NCBI GenBank assembly: GCA_002731275.1
Contig: PCBK01000029.1
Location: 124,001 to 188,000, forward strand
DNA from: Deltaproteobacteria bacterium
GTDB lineage: Bacteria; Myxococcota_C; UBA6777
DNA: 64,000 nucleotides
Direction: 5' to 3'
Made by a program: the position numbers and the translations under genes. Position 1 is the first letter of the stretch; each line of letters opens with the position of its first letter. The notes beneath the pieces are model-generated. The model saw only the letters and a list, made by a program, of their open reading frames with translations. It did no database searches and was not told the DNA's origin. Below are positions 43,349 through 52,736 of the stretch, piece by piece.

Positions 43349-45082
43349 ATGGTAATACGTTTTGCGTGGTTGGTGTGTTTGTTGTTGTGCTGGTCGGGTT
43401 GTGTGGTCGAAGAGGGACCCCACTCTGGCGTTGTGCGTTCAGCGATCATCAACGGGCAGAAGGACTTATCATACCCGGCAGTGGGGGCGCTCGCACAGAA
43501 ACAAGCATATCCCTTCTGTACTGCGACGTTGGTCGCGCCAACATGGGCATTAACGGCCGCGCACTGTGTGGACGCTGTGCTCAAGTATGAGGGACAAGGG
43601 CAGACCATTTACTTTCGCATGGATCGTCCCACTGGTACAGGTGGCTTTACGAGTTTGTATGTACCGATAAAGCGAAAAATTCGTCATCCCTCCTATCTTC
43701 AAAATCCGATCCCTGGCGTGGATATCGCGCTCCTTGAGTTGGGGCAGACTGTGACGGGGGTGACACCTGTGAAGATAAATGCCTCAGCTCCAATGGACGC
43801 AAGTTGGGTGGGAAAGATCGTGTTGAAGATGGGGTATGGTCTGATCCAGACGCGCCCACAGGCTGTGTTGACCAATCATAAGTATTCGACGAGTATACCG
43901 ATCTATCAGGTCGGCGCGGACTTCTTTGTACATTTTGACCAACAGACCGCGAAGAGCGCCTGTCATGGCGACTCAGGCGGACCTGCGTTGATGTTGTTAG
44001 ACGGCGCCTGGACGATTCTCGGCGTCACCTCCGTTGCGTTCCAGGCGACAAAGAATCCCAACAACAACCCACCGACGTTTTGTGATGGTGGTGCGATCGA
44101 TTGTCGCGTTGATGTCCATTACAATGGATTTCTTGCACAGTATCTAGGCACACCAAGTTGCACCTCTGGTCAACAGCGAGCTTGCTACGATGGTCCCGCA
44201 AATACGCGCGCAAAAGGAGCGTGTAAGGATGGGACACAGGTATGCAGTGGCGGCAGTTGGGGAGCGTGTGTTGGCGCTGTGAAGCCTGCAACAGAGCGAT
44301 GTGATAGTCTTGATAATGATTGTGATGGTCAGACGGATGAGGGCTGTCAGTGTACAGATGGCCAACAACGCTCTTGCTACACTGGCCCCGCAGGGACACA
44401 AGGACAAGGTGCTTGTCGAGCCGGAACACAGACTTGCACGAGCGGACAATGGGGTGTGTGTACTGGCGAAGTGAAGCCTTCGAGTGAGACGTGTGGTGAC
44501 CAAGTGGACAACGATTGTAACGGTCAAGTCGACGACCTGTGTTGTGTCGAAGGCACCACAGATCCTTGCTACACAGGCCCTCAGGCTTCCTGGAACAAAG
44601 GCACCTGTAAGTCTGGTGTGCGTACATGCACACAAGGAAAGTGGGGCGCTTGTGTTGGTGATGTGACGCCAAGGCCCGGCGATATCTGTGGTGATCAATT
44701 GGACAATGACTGTGACGGTACCATCGATGAAGGCTGCGCTGCGACCTCTTGTGCTGCGGGCACGCAGCGACAGTGCTTTGACGGACCGGGAGAGGCGATC
44801 GCGCACGCTCCTTGTCAGGCTGGCACACAACAATGTCTCGATGGTCAGTGGGGAGAATGTCGGGGACAACTTCTCCCTCAAAATGAACTCTGTAGTGATG
44901 GGATCGATAACGATTGCGATGGCACCATCGACAACTGTGGACAGAAAACAGGTGTTGTTGGCGGTTGGCACGTACGAGGATTTGGTTGTAGTGTCCAATC
45001 GGACGTCCCTCCACCTTCAGTAGGGCTCCTGTTCTTGCTCTGGAGTCTGCTGCTGTCTTTTCGACGTAAACATTCTTTTTGA
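43349..45082 (+). CDS. Trypsin-like serine protease with MopE repeats and MYXO-CTERM-like tail
   Basis: A 577-residue secreted protease. The signal ends in a lipobox-like CWSGC near residue 18. The protease domain (about 30-270) has an IINGQ start (activation cleavage before Ile), TAAHC (catalytic His), DIALLEL (Asp) and CHGDSGGP (Ser). Then come four MopE-type motifs (CDSLDNDCDGQTDE and three relatives built on C-G-D-Q-x-D-N-D-C), each followed by QRxCY/FxGP modules. The end is GFGCSVQSD, hydrophobic LLFLLWSLLLSF and RRK. Both a lipobox and a C-terminal anchor are thus present, which is unusual. GGAGAG precedes the ATG by 7 bases. Probable role: cell-surface digestion of proteins. Confidence 0.9.
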   Translation: MVIRFAWLVCLLLCWSGCVVEEGPHSGVVRSAIINGQKDLSYPAVGALAQKQAYPFCTATLVAPTWALTAAHCVDAVLKYEGQGQTIYFRMDRPTGTGGFTSLYVPIKRKIRHPSYLQNPIPGVDIALLELGQTVTGVTPVKINASAPMDASWVGKIVLKMGYGLIQTRPQAVLTNHKYSTSIPIYQVGADFFVHFDQQTAKSACHGDSGGPALMLLDGAWTILGVTSVAFQATKNPNNNPPTFCDGGAIDCRVDVHYNGFLAQYLGTPSCTSGQQRACYDGPANTRAKGACKDGTQVCSGGSWGACVGAVKPATERCDSLDNDCDGQTDEGCQCTDGQQRSCYTGPAGTQGQGACRAGTQTCTSGQWGVCTGEVKPSSETCGDQVDNDCNGQVDDLCCVEGTTDPCYTGPQASWNKGTCKSGVRTCTQGKWGACVGDVTPRPGDICGDQLDNDCDGTIDEGCAATSCAAGTQRQCFDGPGEAIAHAPCQAGTQQCLDGQWGECRGQLLPQNELCSDGIDNDCDGTIDNCGQKTGVVGGWHVRGFGCSVQSDVPPPSVGLLFLLWSLLLSFRRKHSF

Positions 45083-49347: not shown

Positions 49348-51387
49348 TTATTGGGCGACGGGGATGGTGTATTGTGTCTCTTCTGGTTGGCGGATGCGTC
49401 CCTTGAATTTTTTCTCGACCTCGTCGACCACCTCAAAGAAGGCTTTTTCCATCGCCGGACCGTTATTGTTAATCCCCTTGCCATCGACGTAGAACGTACC
49501 TTTATGGCAGTATTCAAACTTCGTGCGTTTGAAGGATGATTTCCCTTCAACGGGGAGCCACTGTTCACACGCGCCGTGGACGGCGACGAGGATGAATTTG
49601 GCGGCCTTTCCGTTCTTCATGTCGGGCATCAACAAGGAGAAGATCTGTCCCATATCGGGACCAGACATACCGTAGCCGTGGCCAAAGTAGACGACAGGGT
49701 AGCGCTTGTCTGGATATTGGTGGAACCCTGGAGGGACGACGACGGTGTACATGTGCTTGCGTCCGAGCGCTTTGGAGTCGTAGGTGTAGTGTTTGGCGAC
49801 GCCTTCTCCTGCGGAGGTGTCGAGTTCTTCTTCTTCGAGGTCGGGGTTGGGCATGTGGTGTGTCACAAAACCAAAGAAAGCCTGCACACGCCAAATGATC
49901 TTGGCGCCGTGTACGTGGTCTCCATCTCCATCTGCGATTTGTTTGGGGGTCGCTTTGGGATCGCCATATTGGACATAGACGTGCTGTCCTTTGGTAGACC
50001 AATCGATGTCCTGATAGTTGAAGTTCTCTGAGCCTTTTGGCATGAGTGAGATAAATTTCTCGAACATTTGTACGCGGTTGGGATTGTCATAGCGATTTTT
50101 GAGCGCTGCGTACCAGTGCAAGGCCCCAACATGGAAGTTGAAGAGGTCGCGGATACCGCCATCGATGTAAATATTCACACGATCGAGCTGCTCTCGTTTG
50201 ATTGTCTTGGTGATTTTGAATGGGTCTCGACTGTAGATGTATTCGAGTCCAGAGGTCATGGTCCACTTGCCATCACCTTCGCCTTTGTCCTTTGTGCCTG
50301 CGACGCCATCGATACCATTGTCATTAAATGGTTCTTTGTCATCGTACTCCATGTTACCTTCAGTACCCTTGGGATTTTTGATGGGATCGTAGTTATCTCC
50401 GTTGGGATCTTCGCCACCTGCGCCTGTTTGGCCTTCTGCGACACAACCACCTTTCCCATCTTCTCTATCGTCTTTACATCCATCGATGCCGACATCTTCG
50501 AATGGTTCGTGTGGTGTTGCGATGACAGGTTCGCCGTAGTCGCGTTTTCCGTTGCCATTGATGTCGACGGCGAGGATGATCTGTGCGGGCCAAGTGTGTC
50601 CTGCGGGTTTGTCTGGGTAGTACTTTCCGCTTCTTTCGGTGTTTCCGTCACAAAATGTGATCAGGTCGTACTTGCCTTCAGGGTTGTACTTCCAGTGTTT
50701 GATACCTTTGAAGCGCAGGGGGGTTTTGCAGACATTGGATTGTTTGTGGTAGTCCATGGGAAAGTCTGGCAAGGGCCAGTAAGTGCTCTTTGGGTTCTCA
50801 AAGCCTGGGTTACCAAAGGCGAGGATCAGATCTTGGAGCACACGTAGGATGGCTGTGCGGTTCCAGTTGCCGCCGGCGTCGTCATAATGCCACTCGTTGA
50901 AGTGGGAGGTGAACTCAAAGGGCCAGCGTCCCTTGAGGTCTGAAGACACACAGTACGAAGAGGCTTTGTTAAGGTCACCCGCTTTGGCTGCTGCTTCGAG
51001 CTTTTCGATGTCACAAAAGCCGCTGAGCATCGAACGATAGATATAATCGAGGAGGTAGGTCAAGTTATTGGGAGCACCCAAAGAACCGATGAAGTCAAAC
51101 TTATCGGGGTTATTCATCCCGATGTATGACGCCATCCCGCCGCCCATGGAGACACCGGCGATCACGCGGTGAGTCCACTTGCGTTTGATCGTGAGCTTGT
51201 TGCTCTCGGTTTCTTTGATGGTGCCGCCGTCTTTGGTGCCACCGTCGGGATTGTTGTTGTTTCCATTTGAACAGCCTGGGCCTGTGAAGGCAAAGACGAA
51301 GAGAATGGTGAGCAACCCCATTCCACTCACAACAGACCACAGATTGCGCGCAGAGCGTGCTGTTTCAGATGTCGAGCGATATTCCAT
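49348..51387 (-). CDS. Esterase-like lipoprotein with circularly permuted alpha/beta-hydrolase fold
   Basis: Start at the ATG at 51387, 679 residues with lipobox TGPGC (Cys 39). It reads as an esterase-D-like hydrolase in permuted order. The nucleophile elbow GVSMGG (Ser 80) comes straight after the signal and a short Asn/Gly/Asp-rich linker. The likely catalytic Asp is in YIDGGIRDLFNFH near 410, and the His in DGDHVHG near 492. The part that normally opens the domain, YTVVVPPGFHQYPDKRYPVVYFGHGYG (oxyanion region near 570), comes at the end and finishes with FFEVVDEVEKKFKGR, which in usual enzymes directly precedes the nucleophile strand. Calcium-loop-like inserts (DINGNGKRDYGEP, EPFNDNGID) lie in the middle. 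The frame is unbroken. Confidence 0.75.
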   Translation of the reverse strand: MEYRSTSETARSARNLWSVVSGMGLLTILFVFAFTGPGCSNGNNNNPDGGTKDGGTIKETESNKLTIKRKWTHRVIAGVSMGGGMASYIGMNNPDKFDFIGSLGAPNNLTYLLDYIYRSMLSGFCDIEKLEAAAKAGDLNKASSYCVSSDLKGRWPFEFTSHFNEWHYDDAGGNWNRTAILRVLQDLILAFGNPGFENPKSTYWPLPDFPMDYHKQSNVCKTPLRFKGIKHWKYNPEGKYDLITFCDGNTERSGKYYPDKPAGHTWPAQIILAVDINGNGKRDYGEPVIATPHEPFEDVGIDGCKDDREDGKGGCVAEGQTGAGGEDPNGDNYDPIKNPKGTEGNMEYDDKEPFNDNGIDGVAGTKDKGEGDGKWTMTSGLEYIYSRDPFKITKTIKREQLDRVNIYIDGGIRDLFNFHVGALHWYAALKNRYDNPNRVQMFEKFISLMPKGSENFNYQDIDWSTKGQHVYVQYGDPKATPKQIADGDGDHVHGAKIIWRVQAFFGFVTHHMPNPDLEEEELDTSAGEGVAKHYTYDSKALGRKHMYTVVVPPGFHQYPDKRYPVVYFGHGYGMSGPDMGQIFSLLMPDMKNGKAAKFILVAVHGACEQWLPVEGKSSFKRTKFEYCHKGTFYVDGKGINNNGPAMEKAFFEVVDEVEKKFKGRIRQPEETQYTIPVAQ

Positions 51388-51586: not shown

Positions 51587-52525
51587 TCAATATACTCTCT
51601 TTGGGGACAAAAATCTACACACAGGCGCATGGTGGGAGGCGGGGGGAGGGAGAATGGAGCCTACAGGCGGCCTTTGACAGTTCGACATTGACAGATCAGA
51701 CAGCCATTTTTTTTCGACGAGGCCATGTTTGCAATAGAGCAAACACACAGGCCCACATACGCACTTTGGCGCACCTTTGACCATCTTGCACATCCGACCT
51801 TTTGGGCAAAGCATTTGTTTACAAGTGCGTCGTTTGGATCTTGGAGGGGGAGGCGCGAAGCGATGGTTGGGGATGGGGATACATTTTCCAGGCGTTTTAC
51901 ATCCACCGACGTTTCGCCATGTTCGTTTTGTACCTCTTGGGCATGGCATCATTCTGTAATCGGGGCATCTGAGAGGTCTCCTCATCGTTTTCCGTCGCTT
52001 ACATTTGCCTTTGTGGACGACGCGGACATGCTTACAGGCTGCGCGGCATTTGTTCGAATAGGTTTTGCCATCTGCACCACAAACAGGCGCGTAAATCGTC
52101 GGACAGATACACGGCTTCTTGCGGAGTTTCGGCTTGCGTTTCCATCTCTTGCGAAGTGTCTTGAGCTTACTGCATTTACCTTTGTAAAGGACACCTACTC
52201 GCTTGCAACGAGCTGCACAATTGTTCGGGTAGGTCTTGCCATCTGTGCCACACACGGGGGCAAAGATCATGGGGCAAATGCAGTTCTTTTTTCCGCGTTT
52301 TTTGGGGACACATGGGCCTGGCGATGGACAGCCTCTTACGTTACCCCATACACGCTTCATCCCTTTGGGGCAGCGAAGTCTTTTGAAGGTTGGACATGGT
52401 CTTGTTGGCTTAAGATTGTTGACAAGGAGGGAGGGTTTGATGGTCGGCTTTTTTTTGGAGCTTGCATATGTGCTCGGTGCAAACACGAACAAGGTGACTG
52501 AAAGGAACAACACAAAGATACGCAT
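51587..52525 (-). CDS. Exported protein with two Kazal-type inhibitor domains
   Basis: Start at the ATG at 52525 (GGAGA about 7 to 8 bases upstream), 312 residues. A signal peptide is visible (residues about 1-21, ending near STYASS). Two Kazal domains follow (C-x-C..I.APVCG(T/A)DGKTY.N.C.A.C), at about residues 100-140 and 150-190; the sequence has the classic VCGTDGKTYPNNC. Each side has a CP....CP(R/K)GTKR.W.NV.GC..PG.C module, repeated twice. The end is another Cys-rich segment. Kazal domains inhibit serine proteases; here they could protect the cell from its own secreted proteases (the trypsin-like one at 43349 is a candidate) or block prey proteases. This is inference. Confidence 0.85.
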   Translation of the reverse strand: MRIFVLFLSVTLFVFAPSTYASSKKKPTIKPSLLVNNLKPTRPCPTFKRLRCPKGMKRVWGNVRGCPSPGPCVPKKRGKKNCICPMIFAPVCGTDGKTYPNNCAARCKRVGVLYKGKCSKLKTLRKRWKRKPKLRKKPCICPTIYAPVCGADGKTYSNKCRAACKHVRVVHKGKCKRRKTMRRPLRCPDYRMMPCPRGTKRTWRNVGGCKTPGKCIPIPNHRFAPPPPRSKRRTCKQMLCPKGRMCKMVKGAPKCVCGPVCLLYCKHGLVEKKWLSDLSMSNCQRPPVGSILPPPASHHAPVCRFLSPKRVY

Positions 52526-52736
52526 AGAGGATTCTCCATTGTACGGGTCCGAGCAAAGGCACCTCTCCTTGAGACAAACCACTTTGTCCCTGTGCTTTTG
52601 CCTTTTCGTATATGCACGTTGCCTCCTGATAAAAGATTTATATGGGGAGGACACCGCACACGTTGCGATTGATGGAAGTACGATTGTAACAGAGTGTTTG
52701 CAGAAACCAAATGTGTCTTTTGCTTTTTTGTGTTCG

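Follow-up and report, generated by a model that had tools for sequence, protein, structure and literature searches.

The window analysed here, meaning the whole stretch of 64,000 nucleotides (contig PCBK01000029.1 of a Deltaproteobacteria bacterium, positions 124,001 to 188,000), carries at positions 49348–51387 on the minus strand a gene for a 679-residue protein in which the two halves of an esterase-type α/β hydrolase core stand in inverted order. With a probability of roughly 85%, this protein is a serine esterase of the CE1/esterase-D branch, secreted and probably anchored to lipid, whose catalytic domain was circularly permuted independently of the type 2 polyhydroxyalkanoate (PHA) depolymerases. 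The reading frame is open from the ATG at 51387 to the stop at 49348, and a sequence search of the window genome returned this single copy of the gene. The rearrangement is common to a bacterial protein family that is widespread and has so far gone unmarked.

Order of the hydrolase elements

The nucleophile motif GVSMGG occupies residues 78–83 (Ser80), YPVVYFGHGYG residues 563–573, and FFEVVDEVEKKFKGR residues 650–664, with Asp414 (within IDGGIRDLF) and His491 (within GDGDHVHG) lying between the nucleophile motif and the putative oxyanion segment. The first-pass annotation of this DNA had placed GVSMGG at residue 80, YPVVYFGHGYG near 570 and FFEVVDEVEKKFKGR as the last helix, with candidate Asp and His residues in between, and had proposed a circularly permuted esterase-type hydrolase; the positions agree, and the proposal was borne out by the inverted order relative to PF00756, 1jjf and 7xrt, by a single-domain model, and by homologues of the same order.

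PF00756 was the sole Pfam family matched by the window protein, in split pieces (34.6 bits, curated cut-off 22), with residues 72–106 aligned to profile positions 116–149. Comparison with the XynZ feruloyl esterase (1jjf) using phmmer aligned residues 35–114 to 111–186 and residues 528–578 to 29–77, an inverted order. The first part of the Pfam profile was recovered at the C-terminal end of relatives, where residues 509–622 of L020 and residues 480–593 of L098 each matched PF00756 positions 1–115. When L098 was re-ordered, a single stretch covered positions 1–157 and the score rose from 63.9 to 70.7 bits; for L036, re-ordering raised it from 42.1 to 45.0 bits. PF00756 was matched by 63 of 67 family members at E ≤ 0.01. 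A profile of the family matched 7xrt, a feruloyl esterase (E 2.3e-20), the segments being in rotated order, profile positions 470–554, 590–615, 20–54 and 327–370 falling on 7xrt residues 24–108, 117–143, 145–179 and 203–249 (the last segment at −0.7 bits). The usual PF00756 order, β1 to αB followed by β5, is thus inverted in the window protein, both by sequence and by DSSP of the model. The family profile ran in constant order along all 68 extracted proteins; in some of them an insertion sets off the last part as a second stretch. A motif script with strict patterns recovered the complete ordered set in just 46 of these 68, since its patterns were too narrow (SMGC and SMGT variants, for example), as the alignments show.

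An AlphaFold2 model built from the 67-sequence alignment was predicted as a single domain, with a predicted local distance difference test (pLDDT) of 93.4 and a predicted template modelling score (pTM) of 0.93; the two halves are therefore not modelled as separate complete domains, an outcome that the first-pass annotation had named as one that would refute its proposal. An earlier model from six close relatives only was poor (pLDDT 45.5) and was superseded by this one. Elements follow in the order β5, αC, β6, cap, β7, β8, αF, β1, β2, β3, αA, β4, αB and an extra strand, the labels being our own assignment from DSSP elements, read against the usual hydrolase order. In the model, the last 157 residues hold strands 532–538 and 543–550, then the YPVVYFGHGYG segment, and a near-terminal helix at 646–664. 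Structural comparison with VIA-align gave polyhydroxybutyrate (PHB) depolymerase 2d81/2d80 as its top two rows (Z 16.1, 227 and 231 residues, root-mean-square deviation 3.2–3.4, model residues 12–605), followed by 1jt2 (Z 8.6, partial cover), and among the matches listed CE1 enzymes covered one part or the other; on the model, the whole chain thus matches an enzyme of this superfamily already known to be permuted. Foldseek returned no match for the model in the PDB at E ≤ 0.001, which is unsurprising given that the aligner is sequential and the chain permuted, and a search against viral structures gave nothing usable. The features of the gene, all on the minus strand, are as follows.

51271..51387, minus: signal sequence, residues 1–39, ending at Cys39, the probable lipidation site (non-canonical box TGPGC; from the translation, with Cys39 conserved in aligned close relatives)
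51067..51198, minus: N-terminal start of the hydrolase, residues 64–107, with β5, nucleophile elbow GVSMGG, αC and β6 (PF00756 positions 116–149; DSSP of the model)
51148..51150, minus: Ser80 codon, predicted nucleophile (its motif aligns with GLSMGG in 7xrt, a feruloyl esterase)
50182..51066, minus: β6–β7 insert in cap position, residues 108–402, confidently modelled
50530..50565, minus: EF-hand-like loop DINGNGKRDYGE, residues 275–286 (sequence; conserved in the family), putatively calcium-binding
50461..50496, minus: EF-hand-like loop DVGIDGCKDDRE, residues 298–309 (sequence; family alignment), putatively calcium-binding
50287..50322, minus: EF-hand-like loop DNGIDGVAGTKD, residues 356–367 (sequence; family alignment), putatively calcium-binding
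49822..50181, minus: residues 403–522, with β7 and Asp414, β8, His491, αF and the start of the linker (DSSP of the model)
50146..50148, minus: Asp414 codon, predicted catalytic acid (67-row alignment; weak alignment with GDDDF of 7xrt)
49915..49917, minus: His491 codon, predicted catalytic base (67-row alignment; position after β8 in the model)
49351..49821, minus: C-terminal half, which normally opens the fold, residues 523–679, with β1, β2, β3, putative oxyanion segment FGHGYG, αA, β4, αB and extra strand 669–675 (equivalent parts of L020 and L098 at PF00756 positions 1–115; family profile on feruloyl esterases; DSSP)

Catalytic core, cap and distribution of the family

The 67-row alignment comprised the window protein and 66 of 68 selected loci; L067 and L074 were excluded because their starts were misplaced, and were examined separately, and L010, L012, L099, L101 and some further loci, partial or late, stood outside it. 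Ser80, Asp414 and His491 were each invariant in 67 of 67 rows, and the triad was kept in three of four further members examined. In the putative oxyanion segment, Gly571 and Gly573 were invariant in all rows, and residue 570 was His in 54 and Pro in 13. The triad residues are placed as in an ordinary hydrolase (at the elbow, after β7 and after β8), the alignment of the Asp to 7xrt being weak.

The chain would have been opened between αB and the nucleophile strand β5, and the old ends, after αF and before β1, joined by a short linker at about residues 512–531, leaving one ordinary catalytic core with Ser80 at the elbow, Asp414 after β7 and His491 after β8. The oxyanion hole would be formed by Met81 and the GHGYG segment after β3, which now lies near the C terminus, and the enzyme would follow an ordinary acyl-enzyme mechanism on the permuted scaffold, with a calcium-stabilised cap shaping the substrate cleft. 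The permutation may have arisen in a CE1-like ancestor, probably by tandem duplication and subsequent loss of the outer halves. Long members were searched in their N-terminal extensions for leftover sequence of the first half, a possible trace of such a duplication, and none was found (best E 1.2). The substrate may be an ester on a polysaccharide or another extracellular polymer, a guess from the nearest characterised relatives.

The cap (about 295 residues) holds 25 of the 41 invariant columns of the family and, searched alone, matched neither a Pfam family nor a PDB sequence at E ≤ 10. EF-hand-like spacing of the type DxNxNGxxDxxE, such as DINGNGKRDYGE, is present in the window protein, and each of the 12 rows listed shows it one or more times; judged from this loop spacing alone, the cap probably binds calcium, and it probably forms the substrate cleft. 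According to part of a 2024 survey of α/β hydrolases (PMC11878206), caps and lids often sit between β6 and β7, the position of this insert.

The N terminus of the window protein is a hydrophobic stretch followed by TGPGC. The lipoprotein assignment of the first-pass annotation is favoured by Cys39, which was invariant in six of six close relatives, but this box is not a canonical lipobox (that of L019, LAGC, is canonical). A lipid anchor is likely on the sequence, and is a weaker claim than the permutation.

Five further full-length copies, at 54–55% identity, were found in four other genomes, all with the same order and free of stops, which supports the earlier judgement that the gene is not an obvious assembly break. 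Among 41 genomes searched, the gene was present in these four others of the window genome's family, and the remaining 36 gave three short weak matches and 33 without any; within the window's phylum it was found in five of five genomes examined. A contig scan of the genome collection with the single window sequence gave no match, and a scan with the alignment gave ten loci, including L019 (Kofleriaceae metagenome-assembled genome (MAG), 31%) and L020 (Myxococcota MAG, 33%), both with the same order; L022, from the same scan, was set aside as an unrelated, oxidoreductase-like open reading frame (ORF) by sequence. In 377 genomes of the Myxococcota, the phylum of L019, an 8-row profile matched 102 at E ≤ 1e-10 and 99 at E ≤ 1e-46, the three short weak matches (G104, G346 and G366) not being counted as carriers. 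Among 386 genomes drawn as relatives of the window genome, nine matched at E ≤ 1e-15, namely the five of its own phylum and four of 381 others; of these four, G426 and G571 come from another phylum (two of two genomes examined there match), G629 shares the contig coordinates of its match with G048 of the Myxococcota scan, the two probably being one genome, and G562 carries a degenerate copy, L101. Homologues with the usual order had been named as a possible refutation of the permutation, and the relatives instead show the permuted one; the fetched loci included no relative that combines this cap with the conventional order, a statement not based on an exhaustive search. The first-pass annotation had also called such permuted hydrolases rare, which holds for the kinds of fold, with the type 2 PHA depolymerases as precedent, and fails for the family, found throughout the window-phylum genomes examined and in about a quarter of the sampled Myxococcota.

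L101, a shorter homologue (minus-strand ORF, 571 residues), keeps the order and carries a DVNGNSRRDPGE loop; in it GIGLGG replaces the GxSMGG nucleophile motif and the HGxG segment is absent, and it is likely a non-catalytic member. Other members, such as L056, L057 and similar ones, carry about 100 extra Cys-rich residues between β4 and αB of the C-terminal half, and the NCBIfam acidic double-disulfide repeat NF033662 was matched by 9 of 67 rows (best E 1.2e-12). N-terminal extensions were seen in L041, L055, L064 and L019, and many members have 150–300 residues, recurrent in sequence, between the lipoprotein Cys and the nucleophile strand; the extension of L041 had no Pfam match at E ≤ 10.

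One permutation or two

For the comparison with related hydrolases, 30 PF00756 loci were fetched (28 extracted, 26 used in trees), as well as 12 type-1-like loci (11 extracted, 10 used) and 25 type 2 loci (23 extracted, 12 used), and 25 of the 67 rows of the permuted family were included in trees. With hhalign, the re-ordered family scored 153.8 against the ordinary CE1-type set (probability 99.3), compared with 100.6 in native order, and scored 129.0 against S-formylglutathione hydrolases, 77.9 against type-1-like PHB depolymerases, and about 30 (30.3, probability 6–7) against type 2 depolymerases in either order; the re-ordered type 2 set reached 179.5 against the type-1-like set (probability 99.7). 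The tree inferred by maximum likelihood for the re-ordered core (73 rows, 167 columns) split the type-1-like and type 2 rows from the family, CE1 and S-formylglutathione hydrolases (support 100/99), held the family as one group (98/92), and placed the type 2 set among type-1-like rows. Joining the family with the type 2 set cost 46.2 log units, and a shared permuted clade was rejected by the approximately unbiased test (p-AU 0.0049), as it was after removal of six long-branch rows (p-AU 0.00034). Two independent permutations at the same joint, one in this family and one in the type 2 PHA depolymerases, are likely on these alignments and trees, but not certain.

Several results weigh against an independently permuted, catalytic family. 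Re-ordering the window protein itself raised its PF00756 score only from 34.6–35 to 36 bits, over positions 109–149, and the join, spanned in L098 and L036, was not spanned; as the score changes so little, the case for this protein rests on the family profile against 7xrt. Removal of the long branches lowered the support for the family to 90/46, and a tree from the C-terminal half only (127 columns) did not reject a shared permuted clade (p-AU 0.0715) and did not recover the family as one group. The type 2 comparison set came from one family of genomes, and the homologue L101 has lost the nucleophile motif.

If the family were instead a divergent branch of type 2 extracellular PHA depolymerases, a single ancestral permutation would suffice and the function would be polyester degradation. 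The order and, as far as alignments show, the opening point are the same in both, 2d81 is the top whole-chain structural match, and the C-half tree leaves one clade standing; however, none of the 67 members matched the type 2 model NF050059 (cut-off 280 bits) at E ≤ 0.1, where 47 matched the xylanase/feruloyl esterase model, 33 the type 1 PHA depolymerase model and 22 the S-formylglutathione hydrolase model, 2d80/2d81 were absent from the PDB matches of the family profile at E ≤ 10, the hhalign probability was 6, and both whole-core trees reject the grouping, so we consider this origin improbable. It is also unlikely that the permuted fold is no longer enzymatic and now acts as a binding or structural lipoprotein stabilised by calcium, a role that the concentration of invariant columns in the cap, which may then be the main functional part, and the serine-less L101 would suit, and that the unbroken conservation of Ser, Asp and His across the alignment and in three of the four further members argues against. 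An assembly or annotation artefact, or a rearrangement local to the window genome, can be dismissed with near certainty, as nothing was found in its favour and homologues already refute it: the same order recurs across the genomes of the phylum, in the two Myxococcota MAG loci L019 and L020, and in about 60 other loci. The permuted CE1/esterase-D esterase thus stays the favoured explanation, and the family quite probably represents a second natural whole-domain permutation of the α/β hydrolase fold, one with an independent origin in the CE1/esterase-D lineage and with the same joint, αB/β5, as in type 2 PHA depolymerases; it would have become fixed, together with a calcium-binding cap whose fold is undescribed, in a large family centred on the Myxococcota.

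Gene context and comparison with known systems

Just upstream of the esterase gene lies a gene (51587–52654, minus strand) that we take to encode a small secreted protein with repeats of a Kazal-like motif, CICPxIYAPVCG, and nearby at 43349–45082 (plus strand) is presumably a secreted Asp-rich repeat protein, in which repeated DNDCDGxxDEGC-type motifs follow a trypsin-like protease. Four relatives (L013–L016) share a conserved same-strand gene after the esterase; in L005, which lies at the same place as L015, this gene looks to us like a serine/threonine kinase bearing a zinc-ribbon-like motif at its N terminus, and the window presumably has a YebC-like gene where relatives have the kinase-like one. 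As several relatives have the kinase-like gene downstream and the window does not, gene context gives no function.

Among enzyme superfamilies the α/β hydrolases rank with the largest, and permutations of the whole domain are hardly recorded in them, the only comparable cases met in this analysis being the type 2 PHA depolymerases. If true, a second independent case would make the αB–β5 junction a repeated natural opening point of the fold, and would let one ask whether this joint is special for folding or catalysis; the family is also a natural template for engineers. Automatic annotation sees split PF00756 pieces only, and the family and its conserved cap therefore stay unmarked.

The literature searched yielded no paper describing this permuted family. 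One close permuted form is already known, the type 2 PHA depolymerases, and the authors of 2d80 reportedly described that structure as a circularly permuted hydrolase. In the catalytic domain of type 2 PHA depolymerases the oxyanion hole lies C-terminal to the triad, and the Penicillium funiculosum enzyme is listed among them in the part of the source consulted (PMC2666664). The permuted edge strands given in part of the 2024 survey, for example in 3fle, 2z8x and 1lgy (PMC11878206), are likewise strand-order changes in the same superfamily, but lie at edge strands, whereas the permuted family is opened before the central β5. With the type 2 enzyme of P. funiculosum (2d80/2d81; model NF050059) the family shares an N-terminal nucleophile, an oxyanion segment C-terminal to the triad, and a structural match over the whole chain; it differs in having no sequence match to that structure (E ≤ 10) or model (E ≤ 0.1), in that type 2 enzymes group with type-1-like ones, and in its cap, for which the 305 positions of NF050059 leave no room. 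To the CE1 feruloyl/acetyl esterases and esterase D/S-formylglutathione hydrolase (PF00756; 1jjf XynZ, 7xrt BT_4077) both halves of the protein are akin, with the GxSMGG elbow, the triad and the LPPGY...YPVVYxxHG segment in common; relative to these enzymes, the halves are swapped in the permuted family, and a β6–β7 cap with EF-hand-like loops is present.
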